From: Antedon mediterranea
Taxonomy: Eukaryota > Echinodermata > Crinoidea > Comatulida > Antedonidae
NCBI RefSeq assembly: GCF_964355755.1
Contig: NC_092676.1
Location: 10,398,288 to 10,462,287 of the forward strand
Reading direction: 5' to 3'
Length of the DNA: 64,000 nt
Below, in pieces: positions 1,982 to 63,901 of this stretch. The notes beneath the pieces were generated by a model. The model was not told the DNA's origin and ran no database searches. It saw only the letters and a program-made list of their open reading frames with translations. Positions within the stretch are counted from its first letter, which is position 1. Every line of letters begins with the position of its first letter. The translations under genes and the position numbers were made by a program.

Positions 1982-2954
1982 TAGACTTGCCCCAAGTCTG
2001 TATTTATTGTCTTTTTTTTTAATTTATTTGTTTTTATTTCGACCGCGATTTTTGTCTGAAAATACAGACTTGTGAAACACGTATAGAAATCGATTTGCAA
2101 ACCGCAAACATCCAATAAGAATGACGTAGGTTATCATACCGTATTTGGCTATATGGGGCGGGCGGTATGTAAATATGGATTTCGAATCAACCAATGATCA
2201 TTTTGTTTCAAAATGAAAAAGATCGAGTACGTACGTACAGTATGCTGAATGTACGATGAGACTGAACAACTGTTGAAATATAAAATCGTGTTGCCAAGTT
2301 GTTTTGTTTATTAATTGTTTAGTCCTGGCCTAGGCCTCCTTCGTAGGGCTACTCAACTCGTACGTATGACCTTCCAAATAAAACGCCAATAAGGTAGGCC
2401 TACATACCACCACCGACCGGCACACAACAGGCTACACCACCACACAGAACAGGACAGGGTCTGGGTGGGAATTAAATCTAATTTTTTTCGCATAATAAAT
2501 GATCCATTCAATGTTTGATTTGGCGGAGAAGCTAGCCTATCATATCAAGACGAGTTTTCATGTTCTTGGGAAAAATCTCATCAAATGTTTACCAGACTAC
2601 TAGGCATATAAAATCATTTTTAGCCTTCGGAAACTTTCATCAATGTACCCGGCCAAGTACACATTGTCTAAACGTAACATAGCGCATGCGCATCGTTTAA
2701 GACGCGTCTTAGACGTTGAGTCTTTGAAATTCTGAAATATGAATATTAAAATGATGTACGAGTGAGTAGCCAATGGCATGCGGCTGAAACTAGTCAACTG
2801 GATAATTTATGCACCAAGAATTCTTGGTGTCAAACCACGTGACTTATGCGTGTTTCCCCAGACGGAGTATCCAAACTCAAGTAATACACGTATGAAACGC
2901 CATATGTGCAAAAATATTTATATTTTTACAAAACTCCGTCTGGAGCCCAGACTA
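1982..2954 (-). mobile_element. hAT-like non-autonomous TIR element, copy A
   Basis: This segment is repeated in inverse orientation at 50001-50961 with high similarity over its whole length. Its ends are TAGACTTGCCCCAAGTCT and, at the other side, a block reading TAGTCTGGGCTCCAGAC on the opposite strand. Each end can fold into its own small hairpin (AGACTTG/CAAGTCT and GTCTGG/CCAGAC). There is no transposase. The sister copy shows an 8-bp target duplication, which fits hAT elements. No clean duplication is visible around this copy. It interrupts the acidic ORF that starts at 1744. Confidence 0.7.
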
Positions 2955-3714
2955 TACTAAATAATGCAAAGTTATTCAAACTATGAGATCGATGTTCATC
3001 TAATTCTACGGACCTAGTCAGGCAGCAACATCATACGACAGAGACGCACATTGCAATCGCACCGTCGCCACCCCGCCAAACTCGCTCTGGACGACACGTA
3101 CATTGGCCACAAAAATTCAATGAGCATGACTGTACCTGAATACTTTTTACTAACTTTATGAACTTATTTTTTCTATCGCTCTCACCTAGCGGCAAAGAGC
3201 TAGGGGGAGCTATGTAGGAACTTCATACATATATATATTTGCGTGTGTGCGCTCAACGCGTAAAGTTATGCAAATTGCTGTTGTAAATATAGCGAACGCG
3301 CAACGAGCGATCTCTCTCTCTCTCTGCGTCAAGTTTTCAACGAGAAGACATCGACATTTTTATGAGCAAACCATATTGCGAGTTTTAGTACAAGTTTTAC
3401 GATAATAATTAGTTGTCCTAATTATTAGCACTATTACATTTTGATATTTAGCGTTTTAACTTTACATATTTTACTACGTGTTACTGTATGTTATCGTGTT
3501 TCAATTATTGTACCGTTGTATATAAATTATTGTCCTGAACTAGCCTAGCCTAACCTTACACTGCGCACGTACGTACGTGCTTCGTGTGGATATGTGGTTT
3601 CTACACTCCGTATAGTTTATTTACTTCGAGCCTAGGATACTTCCAGCTTTGGACATCGTTTGACTGCTACAATACTCCATTACCGTATTCTAAATAGGGT
3701 AAGTAAAGACCGAA
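2955..3714. other. no gene seen; short CT microsatellite
   Basis: Nothing codes convincingly here. A short (CT)n run lies near 3309-3324 and a TACG/ACGT-rich stretch near 3565-3582. A CpG-containing patch around 3230-3360 could be regulatory, but no motif supports that. Confidence 0.3.
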
Positions 3715-4222
3715 TTACGTATTCCCTAAAAAACTAGCATACTGCTGATTACTGACCAGAATGTTTTCTGGTTTGAGATCTCTGTGTGGAATTCCCTTTG
3801 AGTGTAAGTAGGAAAGCCCGGTTAAAATCTCTTTTCCAGCATAACATACTAAATGTTGAAAGTTATCACAGTCATATGTATCTAGTTTCAGTAAAAGACT
3901 GGAGAGGTTGCTAATTTGGTAGTCTTCACCAAATGGCTTCAAATCAAAATAAACGTATTCTAGCATAATTGCATAAGGTTGTTGGGACAATGAACATCTT
4001 TTTGTCTTCTGCATCAAGAAATTGCATCATCTTTTTGATTATTACGCATTCAGGCTGTGGCATTTCTGGGAGTTGATAAGTAGTTGTATATACCTGTCCA
4101 AAAGAGCCATTGCCAACAATGCGGTTTACAGGTAGCTGATTACATTCAAATTCATGTATGCCATCAAGTTTAATCACGTCTGATTTCCTTTTTTTCAACT
4201 GGGGAATTTTGAATTCAGCCAT
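3715..4222 (-). pseudogene. Ser/Thr protein kinase relic
   Basis: The minus strand encodes two halves of a protein-kinase domain. The upstream half (4222 to about 4010) has the glycine-rich loop GNGSFGQVY and a following VIIKKM that fits the ATP-binding lysine. The downstream half (about 4017 to 3715) has a hinge-like segment, SYLHSKG and the catalytic loop HRDLKPENILVSNQ. The halves lie in different frames, and the C-helix and beta-4/5 region between them is missing. The frame stops soon after the catalytic loop, before any DFG motif or C-lobe. The VSNQ ending resembles a kinase group seen in multiple copies in invertebrate genomes; that link is from memory. It is a dead fragment, not an active enzyme. 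Confidence 0.7.
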
Positions 4223-4371
4223 TTTTTATAGAACTGTTCTTCTGAAATTAATTTAAAAGTGTAAAGATCAGCATTCCAAATGTTTTGCATTTTACCAGTC
4301 GTGTCTGGTTTTTTTCTCTTTACAATTGCACAACGTAACTTATGCCGTTTACGCAAGTTTTTGGCGATGAT

Positions 4372-4625
4372 GAAATTGCGTCGATGATGAAAATTGCGTC
4401 GATGCAATGAAATTGCATCGATGTTATGAAAATTGCGTCAATGAATATAGTATCGATATATTAAAAATTGCGTCGATGTGATGAAAATTGCGTCGATGAA
4501 AATTGCATCGATGAAAATTGCATCGATGAAAATTGCATCGATGAAAATTGAATCGATGAAAATTGCATTGATGTAATGAATTGAATTGATTATGAAAATT
4601 CCATTAATGATTTTAATTCAATCAA
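4372..4625 (+). repeat. 15-bp minisatellite (GATGAAAATTGCATC-type)
   Basis: Near-perfect tandem copies of a 15-16-bp unit are strongest from about 4480 to 4570 and diverge toward both edges. It lies just upstream (in coding sense) of the kinase relic, and the short ORF on the minus strand at 4195-4407 is partly made of it. Confidence 0.85.
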
Positions 4626-4724
4626 TGATGAAAATTACTACTTACTACTAGTAAAGTAAATAATGATGTTAATAATGTTCTTATGTTGCTAAAAATTGAC
4701 TGTTTCTGAATAGTTTGATATGAT

Positions 4725-5064
4725 AAACATGTTTACCGCTTGTGCTAACGCGCGTTAAATACAAGCATCGGCAGGGGTTCGAGGCTCACTCACTCCATGG
4801 TTCTGGTGGTAGAACGAGTCTTCTCGGATAAGGACTATAAACCGTAGGTCCAGTGTACACAACTTGCTCGTGTGCACTTTAAAGAACCTAGTACATCTTT
4901 CGAGACAAGTAGGGGGTTACCCCGGTGTATTAGTACATCACAGCCACTGATCACCAACTGGGCCCTCTGGGAGATCAGTCTTTGACTGAAGAGGTCACCC
5001 AGTATAAAGATAAAACAAACAAACATGTTTACCGCTTGTGCTAACGCGCGTTAAAGACAAGCAT
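4725..5064 (+). mobile_element. 5'-truncated tRNA-derived SINE with an unusually long target duplication
   Basis: The SINE body (4769-5020) begins inside the tRNA-like head, just before a B-box-like GGGGTTCGAGGC. It runs through a body shared with the SINE at 53128-53425 and ends in an AAAC-rich tail (AAAACAAACAAAC). It is flanked by direct repeats at 4725-4768 and 5021-5064, 44 bp long with one mismatch. The body phrases GATAAGGACTATAAACC and GTGCACTTTAAAGAACC resemble conserved cores of widespread invertebrate SINEs; this is from memory. Integration was presumably driven by a LINE enzyme. Confidence 0.75.
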
Positions 5065-5958: not shown

Positions 5959-6030
5959 ATAACAAAATGATATGAGGTCAGACTTTGAGGCAGACTGGAG
6001 GATGAAGACAAATATATTGTGTTGGGCGAG

Positions 6031-6367
6031 TGTAGTGAATTATTTAAGTTGGTTCCGAGCTTTCTCAGGCGTATATATATAACTCCACGCGACGTACACT
6101 GTCACTGAATGATAACTCATACAAAAAGTATATTTAACTCAACTAGAACTTTTATTCCTTGTAATTCGATTAATACATCTTTCTACCACTACCAGTCAAG
6201 CCTTAATATTTTCTTTATCATCTTTCCGTTTATCTACTTTGATCTTATTCTCTCTTCTCCTCTAATATCTATTACATTCTACTTTTATACTGGATATGCA
6301 AATTTTAGGCTTCAGAGGAGGATAACATTTTCCCTCCAAAAATTATACGATTTTGATTGGCTAATAA
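6031..6367 (-). repeat. 3' LTR, first part (interrupted)
   Basis: Matches 17266 onward. It breaks off after GGCTAATAA, where the palindromic element is inserted. The remainder resumes at 10221. Confidence 0.95.
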
Positions 6368-7040
6368 TAGACTAGGCTATGAATGAGGTAGGTGCCACCC
6401 GGAGAGGTAGAAATTCTCATATGACTTTTCTAGACCAGTTTTTTCTGGGGAATCCAAATATATTGGGTAAACGGGCTGTAACCTGAGAACTTTCGCGTGA
6501 GGGCGCTTTTTTGAAAATGGCTACCAGTTACAGTAGACTATGATATCTTGGCAACCACTGGTCATAGAGAGGTGATTTTGGTGTCAAATTATTCGGAATG
6601 TACATGTTCCTATTTGATGTAATAGAACATTTTGTCAGAAAATGGCCGGAAATACCTCTATTGACCTTTGACCCAATATCTAACAGATATCATATCTCCG
6701 TAACTACTCGACACAGAAAGTTGTAATTGGTGTCAAACTCTCCAGAATATAGATGTTTATATTCAGACTAATAGAAAATTATCTGTAAAAATGACCGGAA
6801 ATAACGTTGCTGACCTTTGACCCAAAATGCAAGACATTTCTCCCATCTGATCACGTTAATCTTGTCAATTAATTCATTTTGTGCCAATTGGAGGTTGACA
6901 TTCTCATATTATTTTCTTGACCAGTTTTTCATGTGCAATCCGAATATATGAGATAAATAAGCCATAACAATTAGGCCAAGAATTTAATTCTTTTACTACA
7001 TACATGCTTCCCTTTAGTGTTTCAGACTGTATGTCGTGTA

Positions 7041-8518
7041 TTAATCTTCAAGATCGCTCACATCACTGCAATCTGAAAAGTCTTCATATTCATTATGTGT
7101 AAACAGTTCCTGGACATCAGTGGGCATCACTGTCTCAATCCATTTAGGCTCCATTTGTTCGTTCCATCCATTGTGTGTACTGTTGTTGACAAAATCATTG
7201 ACGTCTGCTGATTGCCATTCTTTAGTAATGAAGTGTGCTCTAAGTATATGAAACTCAATGGTCTGCTGACATAGTGGCAGTAATTATAATTTTTATATCT
7301 GTAATCTTGTTGTGTCTGGAAAACTTTCTGTTGAAGATATCATATCTTGCTTGATTTACACTTTTCCCCTTCACTCCATACAATAGTGAAACATACTCTT
7401 CAAATTCCTCATACAACTCTTTTGATGGAACATCTGACACTCCAATGTTGCAGAATGTGTCAACAAATTTTGCTTTTGATTCCAGAAGCTTCCAGCAGGT
7501 ACGTTTTCCTTTCCGAAAGAAAGCGGTGTTATAATCGTTACCTGTGAAAGCATGGAATCCAATAAGGGATGATTTCTGCGCTTTTGTTAAATCAATGTCA
7601 CTCAATTTCAGTACCTTTCGGTATTTCCCAGTGTTTGTATCAATAATTACCCTCTGTCCATCATCTATGAAATGAGATAGTGCAATGACTGGAATATCAA
7701 TGTCTCCAGAATGGGAACGAATTATTGCTACGCCTTGATTGTTATTTGTTAAAGCATGCTTTGCATGCAGGATGACTTTCGTGTAGGCTTCTTCTTCCGG
7801 CTACTATTAAGCTCCGGAACCAATACAACATCTCAGTTAGTAACGTAGATGTATTCTTTGTACGATGAAAAGTAGATAACATCACTCCTCATATCTGTTA
7901 GAATGCTTTCTTTCTTTGACACTAGTACACAGCGAATAAGCTCAATCAATCTGGTCTTGTTCTCGCCGTTGGCAAGGAAATTGTTGAAATCACGGGCCAA
8001 CTTTGATATTGTTGAGCTTACAATTACTTTTGGTGCAATACCGCGTATGTTTCTCTCAACAGACTTAATGCTTTTTGGCAGGTATTCATCGGTAACAATA
8101 TCAACACGCTTGTATCCTTTAGGGATGCTGTTGAAAACCTTTGCTACAAGATCCTCGTACGTATCAGGGTAAGATGTAAATGTTCTGATTAATGCCATCA
8201 AGTCAACAACATAGGCAATGACAGTAGCCTTTGCTGGCAGTGCCCGACCAGGATCTATAACATCTGTTGAACTTTCGATGAGAATTTCCATTAGGACACT
8301 TTTCTGAGTTGTTCGTCTTGTCCCATCTGCATTAGCAAGGCTTAGCGGGACAGGGGTAAGTGGATACTCAAAGGCTTTCTTAAAGTCAATTATTCTACCA
8401 TGCTTTGTTGAGGTGGCAAGAAGCTTTCCTAAAACATCCCGATTAGCTTATATTACTCTTACTTTCCCATTTGCCTTGATTTCGAGTTTCTTCCCACTAT
8501 TCGAAAATAAAGTGAGAT
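7041..8518 (-). pseudogene. C-terminal half of a FEN/PIN-like element protein (left arm plus centre)
   Basis: Minus-strand coding starts in the central spacer with ANRDVLGKLL after an in-frame TAA, and continues through a domain containing DEYLPKSIK. A segment beginning EEEAYTKVILHA follows, then SGDID and FHAFTGNDYNTAF with KGKRTCWKLL. The gene ends in an acidic SDVSDLED tail at 7041. The frame is broken near 7840-7800 (a stop and a shift) and near 7265. The spacing of EEA-T, SGDID and TGND-plus-KGK resembles the metal-binding and helix-two-turn-helix motifs of FEN1/XPG-type nucleases; this is my inference. I know the family as a multicopy, transposon-like invertebrate protein of unnamed function. 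The N-terminal half is absent here but present at 36614-39778. Confidence 0.7.
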
Positions 8519-9549
8519 GATGTTATGGATCCTGGTCGAGCACTGCAAGAAACAGACGCGGTATTGCACCAAAAGTAATTGTAAGCTCAAAAATATCAAA
8601 GTTGCCCCGTGATTTTAACAATTTCCTTGCCAACGGCAAAAACAAGACCAGATTGATTGAGCTTATTCGCTGTGTACTAGTGTCAAAGAAAGAAAGCATT
8701 CTAACAGATATGAGGAGTGATGTTATCTACTTTTCATCGTACAAAGAATGCATCTACGTTACTAACTGAGATGTTGTATTGGTTCCGGAGCTTAATAGTA
8801 GCCAAGAAGAAGCCGACACGAAAGTCATCCTGCATGCAAAGCATGCTTTAACAAATAACAATCAAGGCGTAGCAATAATTCGTTCCCATTCCGGAGACTT
8901 TGACATTCCAGTCATTTCACTATCTCATTTCATAGGGTGATGGGCAGAGGGTAATTATTGATACAAACACTGGGAAATACCGAAATGTACTGAAATTGAG
9001 TGACATTGATTTAACAAAAGTGCAGAAATCATCCCTTATTGGATTCCATGCTTTCACAGGTAACGAGTATAACTCCGCTTCGTTCGGAAAGGAAAACGTA
9101 CCTGCTGGAAGCTTCTGGAATAAAAAAAAAATGTGTTGACACATTCTGCAACATTGGAGTGTCAGATGTTCCATCAAAAGAGTTGTATGAGGAACTTGAA
9201 GAGTATGTTTCACCATTGTATGGAGTGAAGGGGAAAAGTGAATCAAGCAAGATATGATATCTTCAACAGAAAGTTTTCCAGACACAACAAGATTACAGAT
9301 ATATCATTACTGCCACTATGTCCGCAGACCCTTGAGTTTCATATACTTAGAGCAAACTTCATTACTAAAGAATGGCAATCAGCAGACTTCAATGATTTTG
9401 TTAACAACAGTACACACAATGGATGGAACGAACAAATGGAGCCTAAATGGATTGAGACAGTGATTCCCACTGATGTCCAGGAACTGTTTACACATAATGA
9501 ATATGAAGACTTTTCAGATTGCAGTGATGTGAGCGATCTTGAAGATTAA
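8519..9549 (+). pseudogene. C-terminal half of the same protein, right arm copy
   Basis: An inverted duplicate of the left-arm gene read on the plus strand. It keeps the canonical EEADTKVILHA, where the left arm has EEEAYT, and has SGDFD in place of SGDID. The last exon-like frame (9238-9549) is intact, with NQARYDIFNRKF and the acidic end SDVSDLED, where the left arm is frameshifted. Its own breaks are a roughly 190-bp internal deletion near 8560, a TGA near 8768, a TGA near 8940 and a frameshift in an A-run near 9125. Neither arm can make the full C-terminal domain, although each keeps pieces the other has lost. Confidence 0.7.
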
Positions 9550-10220
9550 TACACGACATACAGACTGAAACACTAAAGGGAAGCATGTATGTAGTAAAAG
9601 AATTAAATTCTTGGCCTTGTTATGGCTTATTTATCTCATATTACTCGGATTGCACATGAAAAACTGGTCAAGAAAATAATATGAGAATGTCAACCTCCAA
9701 TTGGCACAAAATGAATTAATTGACAGGATTAACGTGATCAGATAGGAGAAATGTCTTGCATTTTAGGTCAAAGGTCAGTAACGTTATTTCCGGTCATTTT
9801 TACAGATAATGTTCTATTAGTTTGAATATAAACATCTATATTCTGGAGAGTTTGACACCAATTACAACTTTCTGTGTCCAGTAGTTACGGAGATATGATA
9901 TCTGTTAGATATTGGGTCAAAGGTCAATAGAGGTATTTCCGGCCATTTTCTGACAAAAATTTCTATTACATCAAATAGGAACATGTATATTCCAAACAAT
10001 TTGACACCAAAATCAACTCTCTATGACCAGTGGTTGCCAAGATATCATAGTCTACTGTAACTGGCAGCCATTTTGAAAAAAGCGCCCTCACGCGAAAGTT
10101 CTCAGGTTACAGCCCGTTTACCCAATATATTTGGATTCCCCAGAAAAAACTGGTCTAGAAAAGTTATATGAGAATTTCTACCTCTCCGGGTGGCACCTAC
10201 CTCATTCATAGCCTAGTCTA

Positions 10221-10291
10221 TAATATAAGGCGGACCTGGTCTAAAGCATCCTTATCTAAACACAGAGAATCACAACATAAATAATATGACA
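10221..10291 (-). repeat. 3' LTR, second part
   Basis: The remaining 71 bp of the interrupted LTR, beginning with the TAA duplicated by the palindromic insertion and ending TATGACA. Confidence 0.93.
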
Positions 10292-17265: not shown

Positions 17266-17674
17266 TGTAGTGAATTATTTAAGTTGGTTCCGAGCTTTCT
17301 CAGGCGTATATACTGTATATAACTCCACGCGACGTACACTGTCACTGAATGATAACTCATACAAAAAGTATATTTAACTCAACTAGAACTTTTATTCCTT
17401 GTAATTCGATTAATACATCTTTCTACCACTACCAGTCAAGCCTTAATATTTTCTTTATCATCTTTCCGTTTATCTACTTTGATCTTATTCTCTCTTCTCC
17501 TCTAATATCTATTACATTCTACTTTTATACTGGATATGCAAATTTTAGGCTTCAGAGGAGGATAACATTTTCCCTCCAAAATTATACGATTTTGATTGGC
17601 TAATAATATAAGGCGGACCTGGTCTAAAGCATCCTTATCTAAACACAGAGAATCACAACATAAATAATATGACA
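17266..17674 (-). repeat. 5' LTR of the Gmr1-like element
   Basis: A 409-bp intact LTR with TG...CA ends, followed on the outside by the GCGAG duplication. It matches the split LTR at 6031-6367 plus 10221-10291 without substitutions. One indel lies in the TATA-like tract near 17310 and one in an A-run near 17577. The short ORF inside it is not a gene. Confidence 0.95.
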
Positions 17675-17809
17675 GCGAGCCTTAAATAAATAAATTGATA
17701 AATAAATAAACATAAATTCACGGTTTTTGCGATAAAAGTTGGGTTTTAATAATTTATGACCAAGCTCGTTGGTGGGTATTTGCAACACTCTTAATAAACA
17801 GGTATTATA

Positions 17810-18440
17810 TTAGGGAGTCTCGGGAAATCTTGAAAAAAGAGACCCCAAATATAATGAGACGTTTTAGTGGGGGTCTCTGTTTTCGAGTTTTTCTCGAAAA
17901 CAGAGACCCCCTATATAACGTAATATTGAGACGTTTTAGTGGGGGTCTCTGTTTTCGAGTTTTTCTCGAAAACAGAGACCTCCTATATAACGTAATATTG
18001 AGACGTTTTAGTGGGTGGGGGGGGGTCTATGTTTTCAAGAAATCTCGAAAAAAGAAACCCCCTATATAATGTAATATTGAGACGTTTTAGTGGGGGTCTC
18101 TGTTTTCGAGTTTTTCTCGAAAACAGAGACCCCCTATATAACGTAATATTGACTTAATTTTTGAGAAAAACTGGAGAACAGACCCCCTATATAATGTAAT
18201 ATTAAAACGTTTTAGTGGGGTCTCTGTTTTCGAGATTTTCTCGAAAACAGAGACCCCCACTAAAACATTTCAATATTACGTTATATAGGGGGTATCTGTT
18301 TTCGAGTAACGTTTTAGTGGGGGTCTCTGTTTTCAAAAACTCGAAAACAGAGACCCCCTATATTACTTAATATTGAGACGTTTTAGTGAGACCCTGGGTC
18401 TCGGGTCTCTGTTTTCGAGGTCTCTGTTTTCGAGACACCT
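17810..18440. repeat. 72-bp tandem array of perfect hairpins
   Basis: Units start GAGACGTTTTAGTGGGGGTC at 17856, 17928, 18000 and about 18079. Each unit holds GTCTCTGTTTTCGAG, a short T-rich loop and the exact reverse complement, giving a stem of about 19 bp. From about 18215 units also occur in the opposite orientation, so long-range pairing is possible as well. The short ORF across it is an artefact. Confidence 0.9.
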
Positions 18441-36613: not shown

Positions 36614-39600
36614 TTAAATAAATAACAGGTGGAAGTTTGTGTTCTTTGAAATGACTACCATCATACGGATGAAACTGTCCTTCAAACTGTTAGCTGTTGT
36701 GGTAAACTTTGAAGTGTTTTTCTGCTTGGGTTCTGCATGCTCACTTGCAAAATTCTGAACTTTTCTTCGTTTGATTGGTTTCAGTAATCTGGAATTATTA
36801 TTAGCACACTCATTTCTAAATTTCTCGTGTAGATTATGGCCAGCTTCTAACGAATTTGTGAGGTACTCTTGCATTGACACCGAGGCCCCCTTCCCTGTGG
36901 CGATATTCAACAGCATTGTAGGTGTTGATGCGGGTGCAGAAAATGGATCACAAGACTCTGTCTGTCTGCATGAAGTAGAGCGTCGATTTGCTGGTTATCC
37001 TTCTTGATTCTGCTTGAATGAAGCTGTGTTCTTGCCTGTTCTTCTGGTAGAAGTCCTGCCAGTCGTCTTAACTGAGTAATGGCCATTCCTCGTTGGGTAG
37101 AAGTGATACACCATCGGCGAATAGCATTTGTAGAGTTATGGAAGCCAGTTATCCCTTTCATTGGTGATGCTGCATCTCTGTTTACCATTTGCTCGAGTGA
37201 CAAGTCTACTGCAGTTCTAGAGAAGTCTTTCATTGTCCGTCGAATAGAAAACGCTCCTTTCTTTAGAACTGACATAATCTTTGGGTCTGATGTTTTAAGC
37301 TTCTCCAGATACAGCACTCCCCAGCGAGCATAGTTAGGACGGTTAAGACCAAAAAAACATCAATAACTGCTGGAAGAATGGCAATATATTTTTCGACGTC
37401 ATTGGTACGCACAGCTCGCATAAGATCACGGTGTATGCGATTTATAATGTAAACATAAATACTCCAGTATTGTGCTGTTGGTCCCAAAACACCTTGCATG
37501 ACCCCAGTGAAGAAGTTCTCATATTGCTCAATATGCTCCCTGAATACCTGACTTGTTTCAAGAAACTCTTCCATCACGCTGCAATCGCTTGTGCATGTTT
37601 TAACCATGTGCATATTGCTTCCTGTTTTTCCTGTGGCAGACTTGACAGAAAACTGTTATAAAGCTTTCTTTCCATTGTTAAAGCCAAAATATCATGAATT
37701 CGGGTGCAGCGATTGTAGTATTTCCCTCGTATGAATCCATTTAGTGAACCTTCTGCCAATATTCCACTTTCTGTTAGGAGGTATTCTGCCCCAGATTCAT
37801 TTATGTAGGTTCCCATAGCACCATAAAATGATAACTCTAGATGAAAGTTACCCAACATTATCAACAGACGATCAAAAAGTGGAGCTTCAAGTGACTGAAT
37901 GGAGTATGCCTTAAGAGCAACTGCAAGATCATATGAAACAATGGCGTAGTCTTGATTTGTTTCCAAAGCTACCTTCATACTTCTCACCATAGTTTCTCGA
38001 ACGACGTCATTTCTTGTTGGTGGTGAAGCTATAGGATCCATGTAACATATTTTCTGCTTTGGTAATTCATCATGGACAAACTGTGAACAAATCCTACAAA
38101 GAGTGGCTGTGGCATAACTTCAAATCTCATTAGCCAATAGAAATCAATTTTACGTTGTGAGTTGCTATAATTTAATGTTGGTGCTCTGATGCTGACAGTT
38201 CAAAAGTCGCTTTACTCAGCTGATGGTGCATTGGTGTAATATCACGTTCTTTTCCGTTGAAATTATGCCTGTTTCTTCCACTCTTAGTGGAAAATGGTCT
38301 GTATGGTACTGGTTCTTCTGTTGTTTTGTTTTTTTTCTGGTAACAAATCCTGACAGTTGCATGTAAAGTATCTTTTCCATCTAATGTCTCCATGTTAACA
38401 TCATAGTTGTCCCAGGCAAGTCCTGTTCCAAGATCTGACTTTAACTCAATACCATCTGGTGAATCTGAATCATTTTCCTCTGTTGAAAATGCGAATTCGG
38501 TTTCTAAGGATTTTATTTCGTCGTAACTCAGGCTGTATCCTAAACGGTTCAGAATACGAAGAATCAATTTAGATCCTGTCAGTGTTCCTATGCCCAAACC
38601 AAGTACAGTGTGCTTCCATGGATGTACTGAGCCACGTGATGTATTGAACACGGCATCAGATGACATTGCTGTTACTTTTCTATCTATGATGGCTTTGTTA
38701 GTATCACCGGTAGATTTGTGAAGGCCACAGAGTAAGGTCCTAAAAAAGAACAGCAGATCCTCTGGTAGATCCGGTGAGCAGGTCTTTAAGGACTCAATGG
38801 ATGTAGGAGTAGGTGTTTCCCATTTAGGCATACACAAAATTTCTTTTCTCAGGTGAAGGGCTGCACTTCTTAGAGTATTGTGGTGTTTCTCTTTCTCATT
38901 CTGCAAACATGATTTTCCATCTTCCTCTGACAAAACTGAATTGTACACAAAATTCCCTTTATGGCGGTTAAAGAGCGTGATCGATATGTTATTTCCAAAT
39001 TTTTCTTAAATTTTTCTTGTTAAGGCCTGTGCTGTGTAGCAGTCGAATGCGTCTTCTGATCCTCCTTTCGCACAATATTCTGTCTTGTACAAGTCAAACA
39101 ATGATGAAACAAACATTGCCTGCTGATTTATGATCACCTCTGATTCAATTAATTCTCCAATAGAATTAAAAGTTATTTTATGTAGCTCTCTGTTTCTAAA
39201 GTTTGGTGTCTGCAAAGTACCGTAGGTTCTTCGACATGAGCCTCAGCCTTTTTGAAGAATTCACGACGACATGATTTGTGATATTGCGCCTCCTTGGCAA
39301 TAAGATCAATTCCACCACTGAGTAATGCTTTGACACGCTCATTCGTGCTACGAGGGGCTGCTTCAGCTATATTGTTGCAGCCTTCCTTTGTTAGACAATC
39401 TGATAGTTGTTCTACTCTCCGTCCTACTGTCTTTCTAATCTTTGTACAGAAGATACACGATCCCTTAAGTAAGCCTTTTGAGTCGCTTACAGGAAGAGAA
39501 CTATGTTTCCTAGTCTCTGGCTTTTTCGTAGGAGGCTCATGTACACTTTGACAAGCTGGTCGCTTTCTAACTGCAGTGAAATTTTTGTAACATGGTTTTG

Positions 39601-39778
39601 TATGATAGTATGCATTGAATCGGTTTGATTGCAAGTTAATTTCAGTTGTTATATCTACATATTTCAACTGCTTTTTTTAGAGTTTCCCATGTTTTATCGT
39701 CACACTCTCGCAAGTCTTTTTCGTCTGAAGTCTTGCAAATGATATATACGCTTTTTTGTTGTTGTTGATCAGTTTCCT
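36614..39778 (-). pseudogene. N-terminal half of the FEN/PIN-like element protein
   Basis: Minus-strand blocks in gene order. An exon-like start near 39778 (after TTATTAG) has SVYIICKTSDEKDL and KTWETLKKA. A Cys/His region follows with AYYHTKPCYKNF, CIFCTKIRK and EAQYHKSCRREF (39640-39230). Then come KHTVLGLGIGTLTGSKLILR and LAWDNYDVNMETL (38948-38172), QFVHDELPKQKICYMDP and GNFHLELSFYGAMGTYINES with IRGKYYNRCTRIHD (38120-37574), QYWSIYVYIINRIHRDLMRA (37613-37263), and MKDFSRTAVDLSLEQMVNRD with NAIRRWCITSTQRG (37317-36907), ending near 36614. At least three frameshifts and a TAA near 39008 break it. I recognise it as an unnamed multicopy invertebrate family. The half with EEADT and TGCD motifs is absent here and occurs in the palindrome at 6368-10220. 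Confidence 0.65.
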
Positions 39779-48849: not shown

Positions 48850-51120
48850 AATGGCCCGAAGGGAACATCACAAATTTGGTCTACCTGCAGACTTGGTCGG
48901 ATGACTTCAGGGCTTTTAGGAAACCCTGCAGAAGGTTCTTTGGGACATATAACAAGAATCAGAGCAACAACTCTGATTTAGTTGTTGAAATTAATTGTCG
49001 ACTTTCTGAAGGAGAGAAAAAACTTCTTTCCCGAGGACTTAAATTCTGCCCAAAACCAAGGCAGGTCCGCGCACAACAACTATCTTTGGATATAGAGTCT
49101 TTTTCTAGAAGATTACGATTACGTGAATATTTTGCTGATTCAGACAGCAGCACCACGCAAAACGAAGGCAACGTTAACAAATTTAAACCAAAAAGTTCCT
49201 GGAATCCACCTAAAAATCGTTGTCCAGCTTTAGAAACATTTATCCAGGCTATTGAGGAGGATGTACAAAACTACGTCCCGAGTCCAGATAAACGTGACAA
49301 TCTCTCAAAACAAGAGAGGCAGGCCATTGCCAAATTGCGTCAGCGTAATGATATCATCATTAAATCCGCTGATAAAGATTCTGCCACTGTTGCTATGGAC
49401 ATCAAATTTTATTAAGAGGAATCCTTAAAACAGCTTCATTATATATCGTAAACTCACAACGGAACCCACCCCGGAAATTGCGGATAAGGTGGCCAAATCT
49501 GTTTCTGTGATGGTAAAAAGACACTCCATCGATCCTAAGATTTACAGTTACCAAATCCACTAGTAGCGTTGATTTTGTGGACACTATAGTGACCATAAAA
49601 AATGGTACTCTCAAAACTGACCTATTCCATCAACCCACTGATAAAAATATGTACCTGCTCCCTAGCAGTTTTCATCCCCAACACTGTACTAAAAACATAC
49701 TGAACAGTAAAGCATTACGTATCAGACGTATCTGTTCTTCAGATTTAGATTTTCAGAATCGTACCGAAGAACTAACCGGACATCTCCGGAATGAATAATT
49801 GTCTAACCAAAAACGTCATTTATCTCATATACTGTAATATTTGTGGAAACAGTACGTCGGAGAAACAAAAAACACTCTCCGTATGAGAATGACACAACAC
49901 AGATCAGCTATCAAAACATTAAAGCTTGTTCAACCTGTAGCTGAGCATTTTAATTCAGCTGGTCACTCGATAACAAATTTCAGAGTTATTGCAATATTCC
50001 TAGTCTGGGTTCCAGACGGAGTTTTGTCTTAATATTAGTTAAAAGATAAATATTTTGGCACATATGGCGTTTCATACGTATACTACTTGATTTTGGATAC
50101 TCCGTCTGGGGAAACACGCACAAGTCACGTGGTTTGACACCAAGAATTCTTGGTGCATACGATTATCCGGTTGACTAGTTTCAGCTTCATGCGATTGGCT
50201 ACTCACTCGTACACCGTTTAAATATTCATATTTCAGAATTTCAAAGACTCAACAACTAAGATGATGCGCATGCGCTATGTTACGTTTAGACAATGTGTAC
50301 TTGGGTACATTTATGAAAGTTCTGAAGGCTAGAAATTATTTTATATGCCTAGTAGTCTGGTAAACATTTGATGGGATCTTTGAAACATGAAAACTCGTTT
50401 TGATATAATGATAGGCTAGCTTCTCCGCAAATCAAACATTGAATGGATCATTTATTACGCGGAGATAATTTTGATTTAATTCCCACCCAGACCCTGTCCT
50501 GTTCTGTGTGGTGGTGTAGCCCTGTTGTGTGCCGGTGTGGTATGTAGGCTAGGCCTACTTCATTGGCGTTTTATTTGGCAGGTCATACGTGCGAGTTGAG
50601 TAGGACCTACGAAAGAGGCCTAGGCCAAGGACTAAACAATTAATAAACAAAACAACTTGGCATTACTATTTTATATTTCAACAGTCTCGATACATTAAGC
50701 ACTGTAGGCCTACGTACTTGGATCTCTTTCATTTTGAAACAAAATGATCATTGGTTGATTCGAAATCCATATTTACATACCGCCCGCCCCATATAGCCAA
50801 ATACGGTATGATAACCTACGTCATTCTTATCGTATGTTTGCGGTCTGCAAATCGATTTCTATACGTGTTTCACAAGTCTGTATTTTCAGACAAAAATCGC
50901 GGTCGAAATAAAAAAAAAATAATAAAAAAAAAAAGATAATACAGACTTGGGGCAAGTCTACAATATTCCATGTGTCAAATGGAGCGACAAAACTCGCAAA
51001 GACAAGGAAAACCACTGGGAATTACAACTTAAAACCACAAAACCTTTTGTACTTAACATTAGAAACATACTCCCAGGTTGGTAAAATTATTCCACTGTCT
51101 ACCAAAATTTAAGTTTCAAT
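48850..51120 (+). pseudogene. Penelope-like polyprotein remnant
   Basis: The N-terminal part (48876-49415) has LSEGEKKLLSRGLKFCPKPR, SSWNPPKNRCPALETFI and LRQRNDIIIKSADKDSATVA, the entry into the RT. A few more RT residues follow in another frame (KLTTEPTPEIADKVAKSVSV). The catalytic palm is deleted. Coding resumes in the RT end with VDFVDTIVTIKNGTLKTDLF and LLPSSFHPQHCTKNILNSKA (49568-49790), then the GIY-YIG tail YVGETKNTLRMRMTQHRSAI and AEHFNSAGHSITNFRVI. A hAT-like element interrupts at 50001. The last codons continue after it (NGATKLAKTRKTTGNYNLKP). It is non-functional and belongs to a different family from element 1. Confidence 0.88.
50001..50961 (+). mobile_element. hAT-like non-autonomous TIR element, copy B
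   Basis: The inverted sister of 1982-2954. It is inserted in Penelope coding sequence with AATATTCC duplicated on both sides (49993-50000 and 50962-50969). Ends: TAGTCTGGGTTCCAGACGGA and, inverted, GTAGACTTGCCCCAAGTCTG. The 8-bp duplication fits hAT. Confidence 0.85.
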
Positions 51121-51519
51121 ATTAACCACCATTTAATCTGATTTTAGTCGGTCAGTCTGTCTGTCGGTCCGGTATCACTTATGCGTTTTAGCACGCGACT
51201 TATGGCTGTTGGCCTTGTTTAATTTCATTCCAAAATTGTTTATACTGTATCTCTACCAAGCTACCTTCTTTGTTTTCTACTCTTATTCAGACTCCACCCT
51301 GTCTCCTTTTGTTGTATTTCTTTTATTCCTGTCCACCCAATGATGAAGGGCTAGTGTTGCCCGAAAGCTCTGCTAACGTTTCTGGCTGTTTTACTTTATC
51401 CTTTTGATTTAGCTTTTCACTTTTTTTTTGTATCTCCTTGAGATTCAGCCACTGATACCCACAGCGTTGTCATTTTTTCAGTTATTTGCCTTTGGATTTA
51501 TATATATATAAATATATAT

Positions 51520-52513
51520 AGAGGATTAAGATTATAATTATACAGTATTTAAAATTACCAACTATTAATTAATCAAATCACTTTTGATTAAGTTACTACA
51601 ATCCTGAATTTGATTAAGGTGATTACTAAGCTTTCTCTTAAAATAGGTCGCAAGAGTTACAGACGAATGTATCTTTGACATTCAAAGGCAAGGAATTCCA
51701 GATCCTCACAATTCTAGCAGGAATGCTAAATTTACCCGAATCCGTATTTGTTTATATTTGGCTTATATAAGTTTGAAGTGAAACTATTTTTCCCTTTAAA
51801 ATGGTAATTGTTATTTTATCGTCATTGATGTGATATATTTTGTTTTGTGTTAGTTCGATTAAAGTTAAACTTTATTCAATTAAACATGTTGTTTTAGGTG
51901 TTTTTTTTTTTGCTGCTGGTGGTATCTACAATATCTAAGCTAGGCCGTACTTGGGGTAAAGGGGGTCTTTAGTCGAACTTTAGAGGGGTCTGCCAGGGCC
52001 AAGGCAGTGTACAGATAGTCTGTAATAAGTCATTTGGTATTGCTTACAATGTGGTAAATCATATAACATTGGTTGCTGGTGGTATCTACAATATCTAAGC
52101 TGGGCTAGTTGAGGGAATGGGGGTCTCTAGTCTAACTTTAGGGTGTCTGGCACTTGCGGTGCAGCAGAAAATTAGTCTGTTGTTATCCATTTAGTATTGT
52201 ATGAACACAACTTGTTCATTTGGCATTAATTTTGAGTGGTACCTCACTCATCTATGCTAACCCCATTTTATGCCCTCCCTCGGGGGGTCTGGCGGGCCTT
52301 TTGCAGCAGAGAAAAAGTCTGTCGTTTGTGATACTGTTATAAGGATGCCAATGGGCATCCCATGGTGGTAAAATTAGGTGGTATCTCTCTCATCTAACCT
52401 GTGCCAATTTTTTAGCACGTTTCACATTGACTTCAAGTGACCCCCAACACACTCAAATAGTCAGATATTGGTACCTAGCTTATCTAACCAAATGTCTCTG
52501 GGCTGCCGGTCTA
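51520..52513 (-). repeat. long inverted arm B-
   Basis: Reverse complement of arm B+, with about two 158-bp units in place of four to five. It keeps the complete outer end (to GGGCTGCCGGTCT), which also matches the outer end of arm L. Variants (CAGGGCCAAGG) group it with B+ rather than with L/R. Confidence 0.8.
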
Positions 52514-53105
52514 ATAGGCCTAGAGTAATAGTTGGCCTAAAGGCTGGTTTGATGTAAAGTAACAACAGTTCATAATCATATTCATATTGAGTTAACATAT
52601 TACTGTTGTGTAGACTACCCTAGTAGGCTACTGCCTAGTAGTAGCCTATCCCTAGACTAGCTAGCCTATATAAATAGGCCTAGTAGGGCCGGTCTGGAAC
52701 AAACAAACTCGAAACTTACCAAACAATGTTCAAAACCGTGGGTAGCAGGCGAGGCCTGAGGCAAGGTTTTCCGTTCCAAGTCGAAAACTTTACACACACC
52801 ACACCAGCTTCACATTGTTGATGGACGGCACCAAAGATAGACCTACTCATAGCTAGGCCTAGGGCCTGACCACCTCGGTTGGTATAAATACCTGTAGGCT
52901 AGGCCTCCTAAGAGCTACACACTCTTTGCAATAAAAATGGCGTGTCAATACTCGCACGTCACGAGAAGGGTGCGCGTGTGTGTGTTACAAAAAGCGCGCC
53001 GCCCCTTGATTGGCTAAAAAAATTGTCTGCAAACCCATATCATACATATTCATTAACTCGTTTAATAGATTTATATTCTATAGAATATAAATTAATTGTG
53101 TTTTA
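52514..53105. other. AGGCCTA-rich segment, possible 5' exon on the minus strand
   Basis: Dense AGGCCTA/CTAGGCCT words occur. On the minus strand a stretch with CCACGGTTTTGAACATTG is followed by a good donor (GTAAGTTTCG), so a non-coding first exon is conceivable, but nothing else supports it. Confidence 0.25.
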
Positions 53106-53127
53106 AGTTGAATTGAAATATATATTT

Positions 53128-53425
53128 ATACTGGGTAACCTCTTCAGTCAAAGACTGGTCTCCCAGAGGGCCCAGTTGGTGATCAGTGGCTGTGATGTAC
53201 TAATACACCGGGGTAACCCCCTACTCGTCTCGAAAGATGTACTAGGTTCTTTAAAGTGCACACGAGCTAGATGTGTATACTGGACCTACGGTTTATAGTC
53301 CTTATCCGAGAAGACTCGTTCTACCACCAGAACCATGGAGTGAGTGAGCCTCGAACCCATGCCGATGTTATGGCTACGTAATTACGGTTCCACTGTCTTA
53401 ACCGCTCGGCCACTCACTCACTCAC
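53128..53425 (-). mobile_element. full-length tRNA-derived SINE
   Basis: Read on the minus strand, the head has an A box (GTGGCCGAGCGGTTAAG) and a B box (GGGTTCGAGGC) spaced as in a class II tRNA. The body shared with 4769-5020 follows and ends CCAGTATAAATATATA. A short repeat (AAAACACAA-type) may be the target duplication. It also shows CACTCA-rich sequence at the head. It is not a functional tRNA gene: the head is unstructured beyond the promoter boxes. Confidence 0.8.
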
Positions 53426-61942: not shown

Positions 61943-63901
61943 AGTCAAGTCGCCCCATCGCAAAGTCGCCCCATACAAAGTCGCCCAATACAAAGTCGCC
62001 CCATCGCAAAGTCGCCCCAAAACAAAGTCGCCCCGGCACAGTCGCCCCATCGCAAAGTCGCCCCATTGCAAAGTCGCCCCATCGCAAAGTCGCCCCAACG
62101 CAAAGTCGCCCCATCGCAAAGTCGCCCACGGTTTTAATCATATTGGTTGCGTTTGATATCGATTGCGTTGTTACTTTGGTCGCGCTAATGTCGTATACAG
62201 TATAATGTTTATCCTATATACATAATTTGTGTTTTAATTTTTATTTTACAGGTTTTAATGGAGTGATGTGCTTTTTAAAAATCATTAAAAAAATAGTCCC
62301 TTGTTTGAAAGTTCTAAAAAGATTATCCATGATTTATAGTTTCGAAAATGTTAATTTAATATGATTTTAAAATTAGTTACCAGAGCCACAATTACGAATC
62401 TTTCTTCAACCTACGCGTGGATACCAGCTAATTTTTTAGGATAATATTATTATAATAAATGTATAAATGTGTAGTAGCCTAGGCCTTCCTATAGATTTAC
62501 AGTAGTTAAAACAATAACAGTGTTGTTAGACAATGAGTGTTATAGCAATAGGCTACTTATTGATCATTTTGCATTTATTGACAAGTCATGTGTCTTAATT
62601 TTATAATGACTTTTCAAAATAAAGAAATAAAAAAAAAAGGATTTCATCGCCGATATGATTGTTTTACATGCAGTAGTAAAATTAAAACGCTACATTTTGA
62701 CCATGGAAAAACCATCGTACAGTATCGTGTGCGTGTTTTGTAAAAAGGGGAATCCCCGACGGTCAGCAGAAAGACGGCGCAGCTCCGATTGGTTTCAGAG
62801 AATGTTTCAGATGGCGAGACGCCTTTCATTCAACAGCACAATGATAATTTTACTGAAGAAATTCTTTTCAACCCTTTTGGTTAGGCATAGAACATTCTAA
62901 TTATCATGCCTAATAAATATCCTCATATCGGGTATTTATTTAATTTTAAATTAAACAAGACCGTGAAGAGGCACGGAATAATACGTACACGGACGTACGA
63001 CGAATACACACACGCACGTCATCATTTACGACATATAGTGGTGATATGATGCAATTTTATAATGGATATAATGATGGAATTGCCTTTCCAGGCTTAATCA
63101 ATTGTTCATTGTAATTATGTATGTAATAGTAAACTGAATGTTTATAAATAAATTGTTTTACGTAATTTGTTGCATATAAAATAAAAGACACAGACGTAGC
63201 CTACGTTTCCTATAAAATATTTCACATTTAAATAATTATGTACTGTTAAATGACATTATGCTGGATAATATTATAATCTTAAACTATGTTTACAAATTAT
63301 TAATATAGGCCTAATAATAATAATACATATTCATCGACCAAAGTAAAAATAATCTAGATCGTATAACATCATTTTATCGCGACCAAATTTAAACGCGACC
63401 GATTTCGAACGCGACTGATATCATCGTAAAACTCCGGCGGGGTTTCCCCATCTTCAGATGGTGCGTTGTAGCGCGACAACGGCGGAGTAATTACGGGGGT
63501 TTCCCTCTGGTAAGCTAGCACGTTAGTGCGACCGCGGAGTGATTAGTCGGGGGCTTCCTCTCTGATGATGGTGGTGCGTGCCGATTGTGTGACCTGAGAC
63601 TACATGGCGGGGCTTCCCCTTTTTATGCCTACACGTTCCGTGTTATTTTGTGTATCATTGCGACATTTTACGCACTTGTAAACTATTTTTTAACGTTTTG
63701 GGGCGACTTTGCGATAGGGCGACTTTGTGATGGGGTGACTTTGCGATGGGGCGACTTTGCGTTGGGGCGACTTTGCGATGGGGCGACTTTGCGATGGGGC
63801 GACTGTGTCGGGGCGACTTTGTTTTGGGGCGACTTTGCAATGGGGCGACTGTGTAAGGGGCGACTTTGTATGGGGCGACTTTGCGATGGGGCGACTTGAC
63901 T
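61943..63901. mobile_element. TIR element whose ends are 16-bp tandem arrays
   Basis: Left end: AGTCAAGTCGCCCCATCGCA, followed by about eleven 16-bp modules GTCGCCCCATCGCAAA to about 62130. Right end: the inverse array from about 63698 to 63901, closing GGGCGACTTGACT. The first modules of both arrays agree in their private variants (the second repeat is CATACAAAG in each), which shows that they are true inverted termini. Inside the arrays, words such as TTTGGTCGCG near 62178 and CGCGACCAAATTT near 63379 are also inverted. No transposase is present; the ORFs over the arrays are artefacts. A target duplication was not resolved. Confidence 0.75.
62140..63690. other. interior of the modular-TIR element, no gene
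   Basis: Apart from a short plus ORF (62655-62900) without recognisable domains, and a GC-richer stretch at 63400-63620 with repeated GGTTTCCC/GGGGCTTCC words, I see nothing coding. Confidence 0.35.

Follow-up and report, generated by a model that had tools for sequence, protein, structure and literature searches.

The element and its insertion site

At positions 6368-10220 of the window (the whole stretch of 64,000 nucleotides from Antedon mediterranea that was analysed) lies a 3853-bp copy of a palindromic (foldback) non-autonomous DNA transposon, with no strand assigned, which we delimited by self-inverted alignment and by comparison with an empty site. It is flanked by a 3-bp target-site duplication (TSD), TAA, at 6365-6367 and 10221-10223 on the plus strand, and it cuts a Ty3/gypsy-type long terminal repeat (LTR) at 6031-10291 on the minus strand. 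This is the 3' LTR of a minus-strand retrotransposon that has its RNase H open reading frame (from the ORF list) on the same strand, its partner LTR at 17266-17674, and a 5-bp duplication, GCGAG, at 6026-6030 and 17675-17679. The partner LTR has a single TAA at the corresponding site, and the two flanks, joined with one TAA removed, align with it over ~404 bases with 0 substitutions, the only differences being one 5-nt and one 1-nt indel. The first-pass annotation had described an insertion splitting an LTR with TAA at both edges, and this is borne out to the base.

Elsewhere in the genome, the LTR continues unbroken through the joined site in at least 40 copies, at 97-100% identity, and a second palindromic copy (C2:24258290-24262952) has at least 10 paralogous empty sites spanning its joined flanks. 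The boundaries are thus supported by two independent empty sites, and the check for empty sites that had been proposed earlier gives exactly 6368 and 10220 here. In the same search at C2:2345875, the left flank only partly matches repeats, none of the matches extending across the joined site.

The window holds other repeats. Just outside the retrotransposon (17851-18152) are tandem 72-bp repeats, each of them palindromic (GGGGGTCTCTGTTTTCGAG...CTCGAAAACAGAGACCCCC), and at 61943-63901 there is a foldback-like structure in which ~190-bp inverted arms of 16/46-bp tandem repeats (AAGTCGCCCCATCGCA) flank ~1.6 kb. One further repeat is present as two copies in opposite orientation (2012-5012 and 50035-53367), 91-97% alike in pieces and ~48 kb apart.

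Architecture of the palindrome

The left arm (6368-8054, plus strand, 1687 bp) and the right arm (8548-10220, minus strand, 1673 bp) are 97% identical in inverted alignment, with 8 gaps and 49 mismatches over 1671 aligned bases. By the arm-diagnostic states described below, the left arm is of the long type and the right arm of the short type. As much as 87% of the element is palindromic, which is far above chance and agrees with the near-complete inverted repeat with arms of ~1.7-1.9 kb that had been annotated. Long terminal inverted repeats thus dominate the element and leave a short middle, as in foldback (FB-type) elements. This middle is a 493-nt loop (8055-8547), consisting of the upstream continuation of the long-type unit, which extends 2149 bp inward from the left end and hence beyond the left arm, and of the footprint of the centre junction. 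The footprint (8519-8552, minus strand) is an inverted copy of element positions 1863-1897 that is common to the sister copies, and it shows that the right arm once extended to 1897 and then lost 176 bp. The centre of the element is more complex than was earlier described. Classical FB elements and Tetris have tandem repeats in their arms; here, each arm has, near its end, only two 149-nt direct repeats (6539-6836 on the plus strand, mirrored at 9766-10049) that are 71-75% alike.

Both arms carry part of a transposon gene, as seen in the ORFs and by tblastn with the protein of a distant full-length relative (L070, described below). The left fragment (7041-8516, minus strand) and the right fragment (8548-9549, plus strand, including an ORF at 9238-9549) cover the same C-terminal region and read outward, with their stop codons at 7041-7043 and 9547-9549, respectively. 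The outward reading of one gene region on both arms had been correctly noted; the "half-gene" had not, as the arms correspond to residues ~869-1352 in a relative that is at least 1360 amino acids long, roughly the C-terminal third, and the frames are broken.

A family of copies with a single origin

We searched the genome (354 Mb in 18 contigs) for the family terminus, TAGACTAGGCTATGAATGAGG. The 21-base terminus has 82 matches (42 forward and 40 reverse), as compared to 0 for the reversed control. The matching termini form 36 inverted pairs (including one partner with an indel that was added from a separate search), most of them spanning 3842-3855 bp. Overlapping loci were joined and then mapped to the 6368-10220 copy as reference, which verified 27 copies by sequence, all with a common centre, with some other copies placed by coordinates only. 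The search had been suggested as a way to find further palindromic copies, and it did so.

A 3-bp target duplication, AT-rich and variable, is found in 10 of the 11 copies for which both flanks were read (TTT, CAT, TAT, AAT, AAT, TAA, ATT, TAT, and TAA, together with TAA at 6368-10220), and in this, as in its empty sites, the family behaves as a mobile foldback element. The exception, lacking matching 3-bp flanks, is C1:30009455-30012885, a member of another derivative class. Two pairs of copies are near-identical (99.97-100%): C3:23153699 and C6:8313426 have 0 differences in 3386 compared bases, and C4:35364007 and C9:24938880 have 1 in 3817. In both pairs the copies lie on different chromosomes in unrelated flanks, and they are therefore transpositions and not segmental duplications. 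The 6368-10220 copy differs by 0.58% from its nearest relative, and it arrived after the retrotransposon that it interrupts, whose own LTRs are free of substitutions. Recent movement of the structure as a unit, which had been read from the window, is thus confirmed by empty sites, target duplications, and near-identical copies in unrelated surroundings.

The 27 copies share one architecture: positions 1-2149 read inward, an inverted 1897-1863, a shared 176-bp deletion, and an inverted 1687-1. Long-type and short-type arms are told apart by 21 positions between 440 and 1680, whose states are kept in the correct arms in 26 of the 27 copies. Arms of the same type differ between copies by 0-1.7% (copy medians), as compared to 2.3-3.3% between the two arms within one copy, and the arm tree splits long arms from short arms. 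Given the common centre and the retained arm-specific sites, the palindrome formed once and was amplified whole, without its arms being homogenised. When compared with an outgroup (L071), about half of the 21 diagnostic changes fall on each arm; to judge by these sites, the arms would either have diverged after formation or have come from two slightly different templates.

The one copy that departs from this pattern (L050, C6:9316449-9320207) has its arms swapped from 477 to 1329; between 1418 and 1644 both arms are of the long type, and at 1680 the original state is back. This is the signature that would be expected of an inter-arm crossover that inverts the centre, along with a conversion tract. 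The copy is a natural record of recombination between the arms of a palindrome. Shorter copies, of 2483 and 2729 bp, still combine a long-type with a short-type arm but the centre is gone, as is expected of unstable palindromes.

Two other derivatives of the same parent also have the 3' side of the gene at either end, and what sets the classes apart is the inward reach of each end. In addition to the main class, there is a ~3.4-kb class whose right arm stops at 994 (L071/L073) and a class whose right arm stops at 398 (L055/L076/L077), for a total of three classes.

The parent transposon and its superfamily

The best full-length relative among the loci read is L070 (C10:8463000-8471500). It has one uninterrupted frame of 1360 codons (L070:2114-6193), and its inverted ends are short, at 70-100 bp. 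It matches the gene fragment of the arms at ~38% and has subterminal motifs in common with the family, with part of the subterminal repeat region matching both of its ends. Full-length copies with single genes had been expected, and here the expectation failed: neither a close intact parent nor an active source of transposase was found in the assembly with the fragment, its upstream part, or the N-terminal and central parts of the relative as queries, and assembly gaps could hide a parent. Another stretch of the window (36614-39676, minus strand) holds a second, frameshifted member of this long-gene transposon group. It has the N-terminal part as well, and it is seen in the ORFs and by tblastn with the L070 protein, at 37087-39038. 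As for the L070 family itself, many of its copies (such as C1:28804693, C9:12772026, C10:15697519, and C8:4822982) start near one internal point, residue ~311 of the query, which suggests that it has its own amplified 5'-deleted derivative.

Whether the query was a sequence or an alignment, searches of the gene against Pfam, NCBIfam, and PDB profiles did not rise above noise; there were no relatives in viral contigs and no Rfam match within the 64-kb window. A structure model of the window's 152-aa piece has a pLDDT of 37. The acidic motifs VDGMAL, EEADT, SPDTDV, and GCDTTSAF are nuclease-like by eye only. The P superfamily has TSDs of 7-8 bp (PMC5199201), as opposed to the 3 bp of this family. 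Academ elements duplicate 3 bp (PMC5199201) and their autonomous members have a mean length of 5565 bp (PMC10294476), and the AcademX lineage of Academ is nuclease-encoding with TSDs of 3-4 bp (PMC10045372), a range that includes the value seen here. Like AcademX, the family has a 3-bp TSD of variable sequence, a related full-length element of ~6.6 kb with one long ORF, and acidic motifs that look nuclease-like by eye. The TSD length, together with a long gene that looks nuclease-like, would point to AcademX as the putative lineage; none of the profiles searched joins the gene to Academ.

Discussion

Here, we propose that the element at 6368-10220 is very probably one copy of a clonal, non-autonomous foldback family of ~30 copies derived from an AcademX-like DNA transposon with a 3-bp TSD, and that the palindrome originated in gap repair and was then mobilised as a unit. 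Repair of an excision gap would have copied both broken ends inward from one template end, that of the gene's 3' side, which is conceivable if the terminal repeats of the parent were interchangeable, so that both broken ends could use the same template end. Presumably the copying extended over 2149 bp from one broken end and over 1897 bp from the other before the two products were joined, with a 3-nt filler, through ~2 bp of microhomology; junctions in the family have ~2 bp of microhomology, with a 3-nt filler in the main class. The product would have lost the 5' end and the N-terminal part of the gene and retained two functional termini. It would then have moved by cut-and-paste with a transposase supplied in trans. 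We infer the supply in trans because no close intact parent or active source was found in the assembly, and as both ends are intact, cut-and-paste in trans suffices. How such a palindrome is copied and mobilised was initially thought not to be obvious, and most of that puzzle is gone: the element has two intact termini, and its arms keep separate histories through transposition.

Misassembly is generally frequent at long palindromes, and an assembly artefact or a tandem-inverted collapse would be one way to account for the structure. However, 27 copies in unrelated flanks have one centre and one set of arm differences in common, and the empty sites agree exactly with the boundaries, and we reject this reading as exceedingly improbable. 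The palindrome might also have formed independently at each site, such as by a local inverted duplication after insertion, and the three right-arm extents (1897, 994, and 398) do point to more than one rearrangement in the wider family. Within the main class, however, independent formation is refuted by the one centre, the one 176-bp arm deletion, and the 21 arm-diagnostic sites of the 27 copies, and we give it virtually no credence. Thus, a single formation followed by transposition as a unit is the reading that we retain.

Could the palindrome have been kept for what it encodes? The truncated arm ORF may be a KP-like repressor protein that regulates transposition, as every copy has the same C-terminal region, with open stretches of up to ~205 aa. 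However, the frames are broken in the 6368-10220 copy and in others, and the coding changes among long arms (28 synonymous, 86 nonsynonymous, and 5 stop) fit the neutral expectation (29.7, 84.8, and 4.5). The coding remnants drift neutrally with no detectable selection at the protein level, and a kept repressor, which is therefore unlikely, is largely refuted and in our estimate very improbable. Alternatively, the palindrome may be a mobile silencer, its read-through RNA forming a 1.67-kb hairpin and small RNAs against the transposase gene, with silencing-driven selection or drive having kept the palindrome and removed the parent. The inverted arms hold 3' transposon-gene sequence in all copies, a close intact parent is no longer present in the assembly, and in maize, Mu killer, in which mudrA is partly duplicated in inverted orientation and TIRA is present twice, silences MuDR (PMC3440606). 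The element also interrupts a retrotransposon at its 3' LTR, where the transcript of this host could cross it, and from the layout of the locus, read-through from the host's own 5' LTR promoter upstream is plausible; a transcript through any copy would fold into a hairpin of ~1.67 kb. On the other hand, ordinary titration or decay would equally account for the loss of the parent, and palindromicity is not visibly selected, given the neutral drift of the coding bases and the existence of centre-deleted copies. We regard this explanation as unlikely. By analogy, dispersed palindromes might have made double-stranded RNA that silenced the transposase gene and helped to extinguish the parent while the palindromes still moved, a mobile and multicopy Mu killer in an animal, which we consider a speculative and doubtful proposal. 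Gap repair followed by mobilisation as a unit is the account that we carry into the comparison with known systems.

Foldback elements with long terminal inverted repeats (TIRs) and no partner, ORF recruitment, and hairpin silencing are each already known, from Tetris, Galileo, and Mu killer among others. Galileo (P superfamily, Drosophila) has ORF segments recruited into its TIRs in D. willistoni copies, with the 3' end of the transposase ORF in both terminal repeats (>500 bp in one copy), and its defective copies were attributed to aborted or template-switched gap repair and to ectopic recombination; such recruitment was termed unique to Galileo in 2014 (PMC4168063). The Antedon family likewise has ORF 3' ends in both TIRs, but it differs in having ~1.2 kb of ORF per arm, an 87% palindrome, a TSD of 3 bp, one rearranged form amplified clonally to ~30 copies, and a gene that is unrelated by all searches run. 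The Tetris foldback element of D. virilis has TIRs of up to 1735 bp with internal repeats, a short middle, and no autonomous partner in the assembly (PMC4079207); the long TIRs, the short middle, and the missing partner have counterparts here, and the internal repeats may have one in the two 149-nt repeats per arm, whereas its TSDs are 8-10 bp and its tandem-repeat TIRs have no coding remnant (PMC4079207), as opposed to 3-bp TSDs and arms that contain a transposon gene. As in Mu killer (PMC3440606), part of the transposon gene is in inverted duplication together with a terminal repeat, making a hairpin RNA possible, but silencing has been demonstrated for Mu killer, which is one locus, and the Antedon family is mobile and multicopy and at most a putative silencer. 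What is new is a foldback element that was amplified clonally and in which transposon gene takes up most of each arm.

Thus, ORF recruitment into terminal repeats is extended beyond Galileo to another kind of transposon, and on a larger scale. Each of the arms is a potential hairpin against a transposon gene, and small-RNA sequencing could tell whether foldback elements silence. An 87%-palindromic structure can be replicated and transposed faithfully many times, its arms keeping separate histories, and the arm-exchange copy with its conversion tract is one exchange caught in the act.
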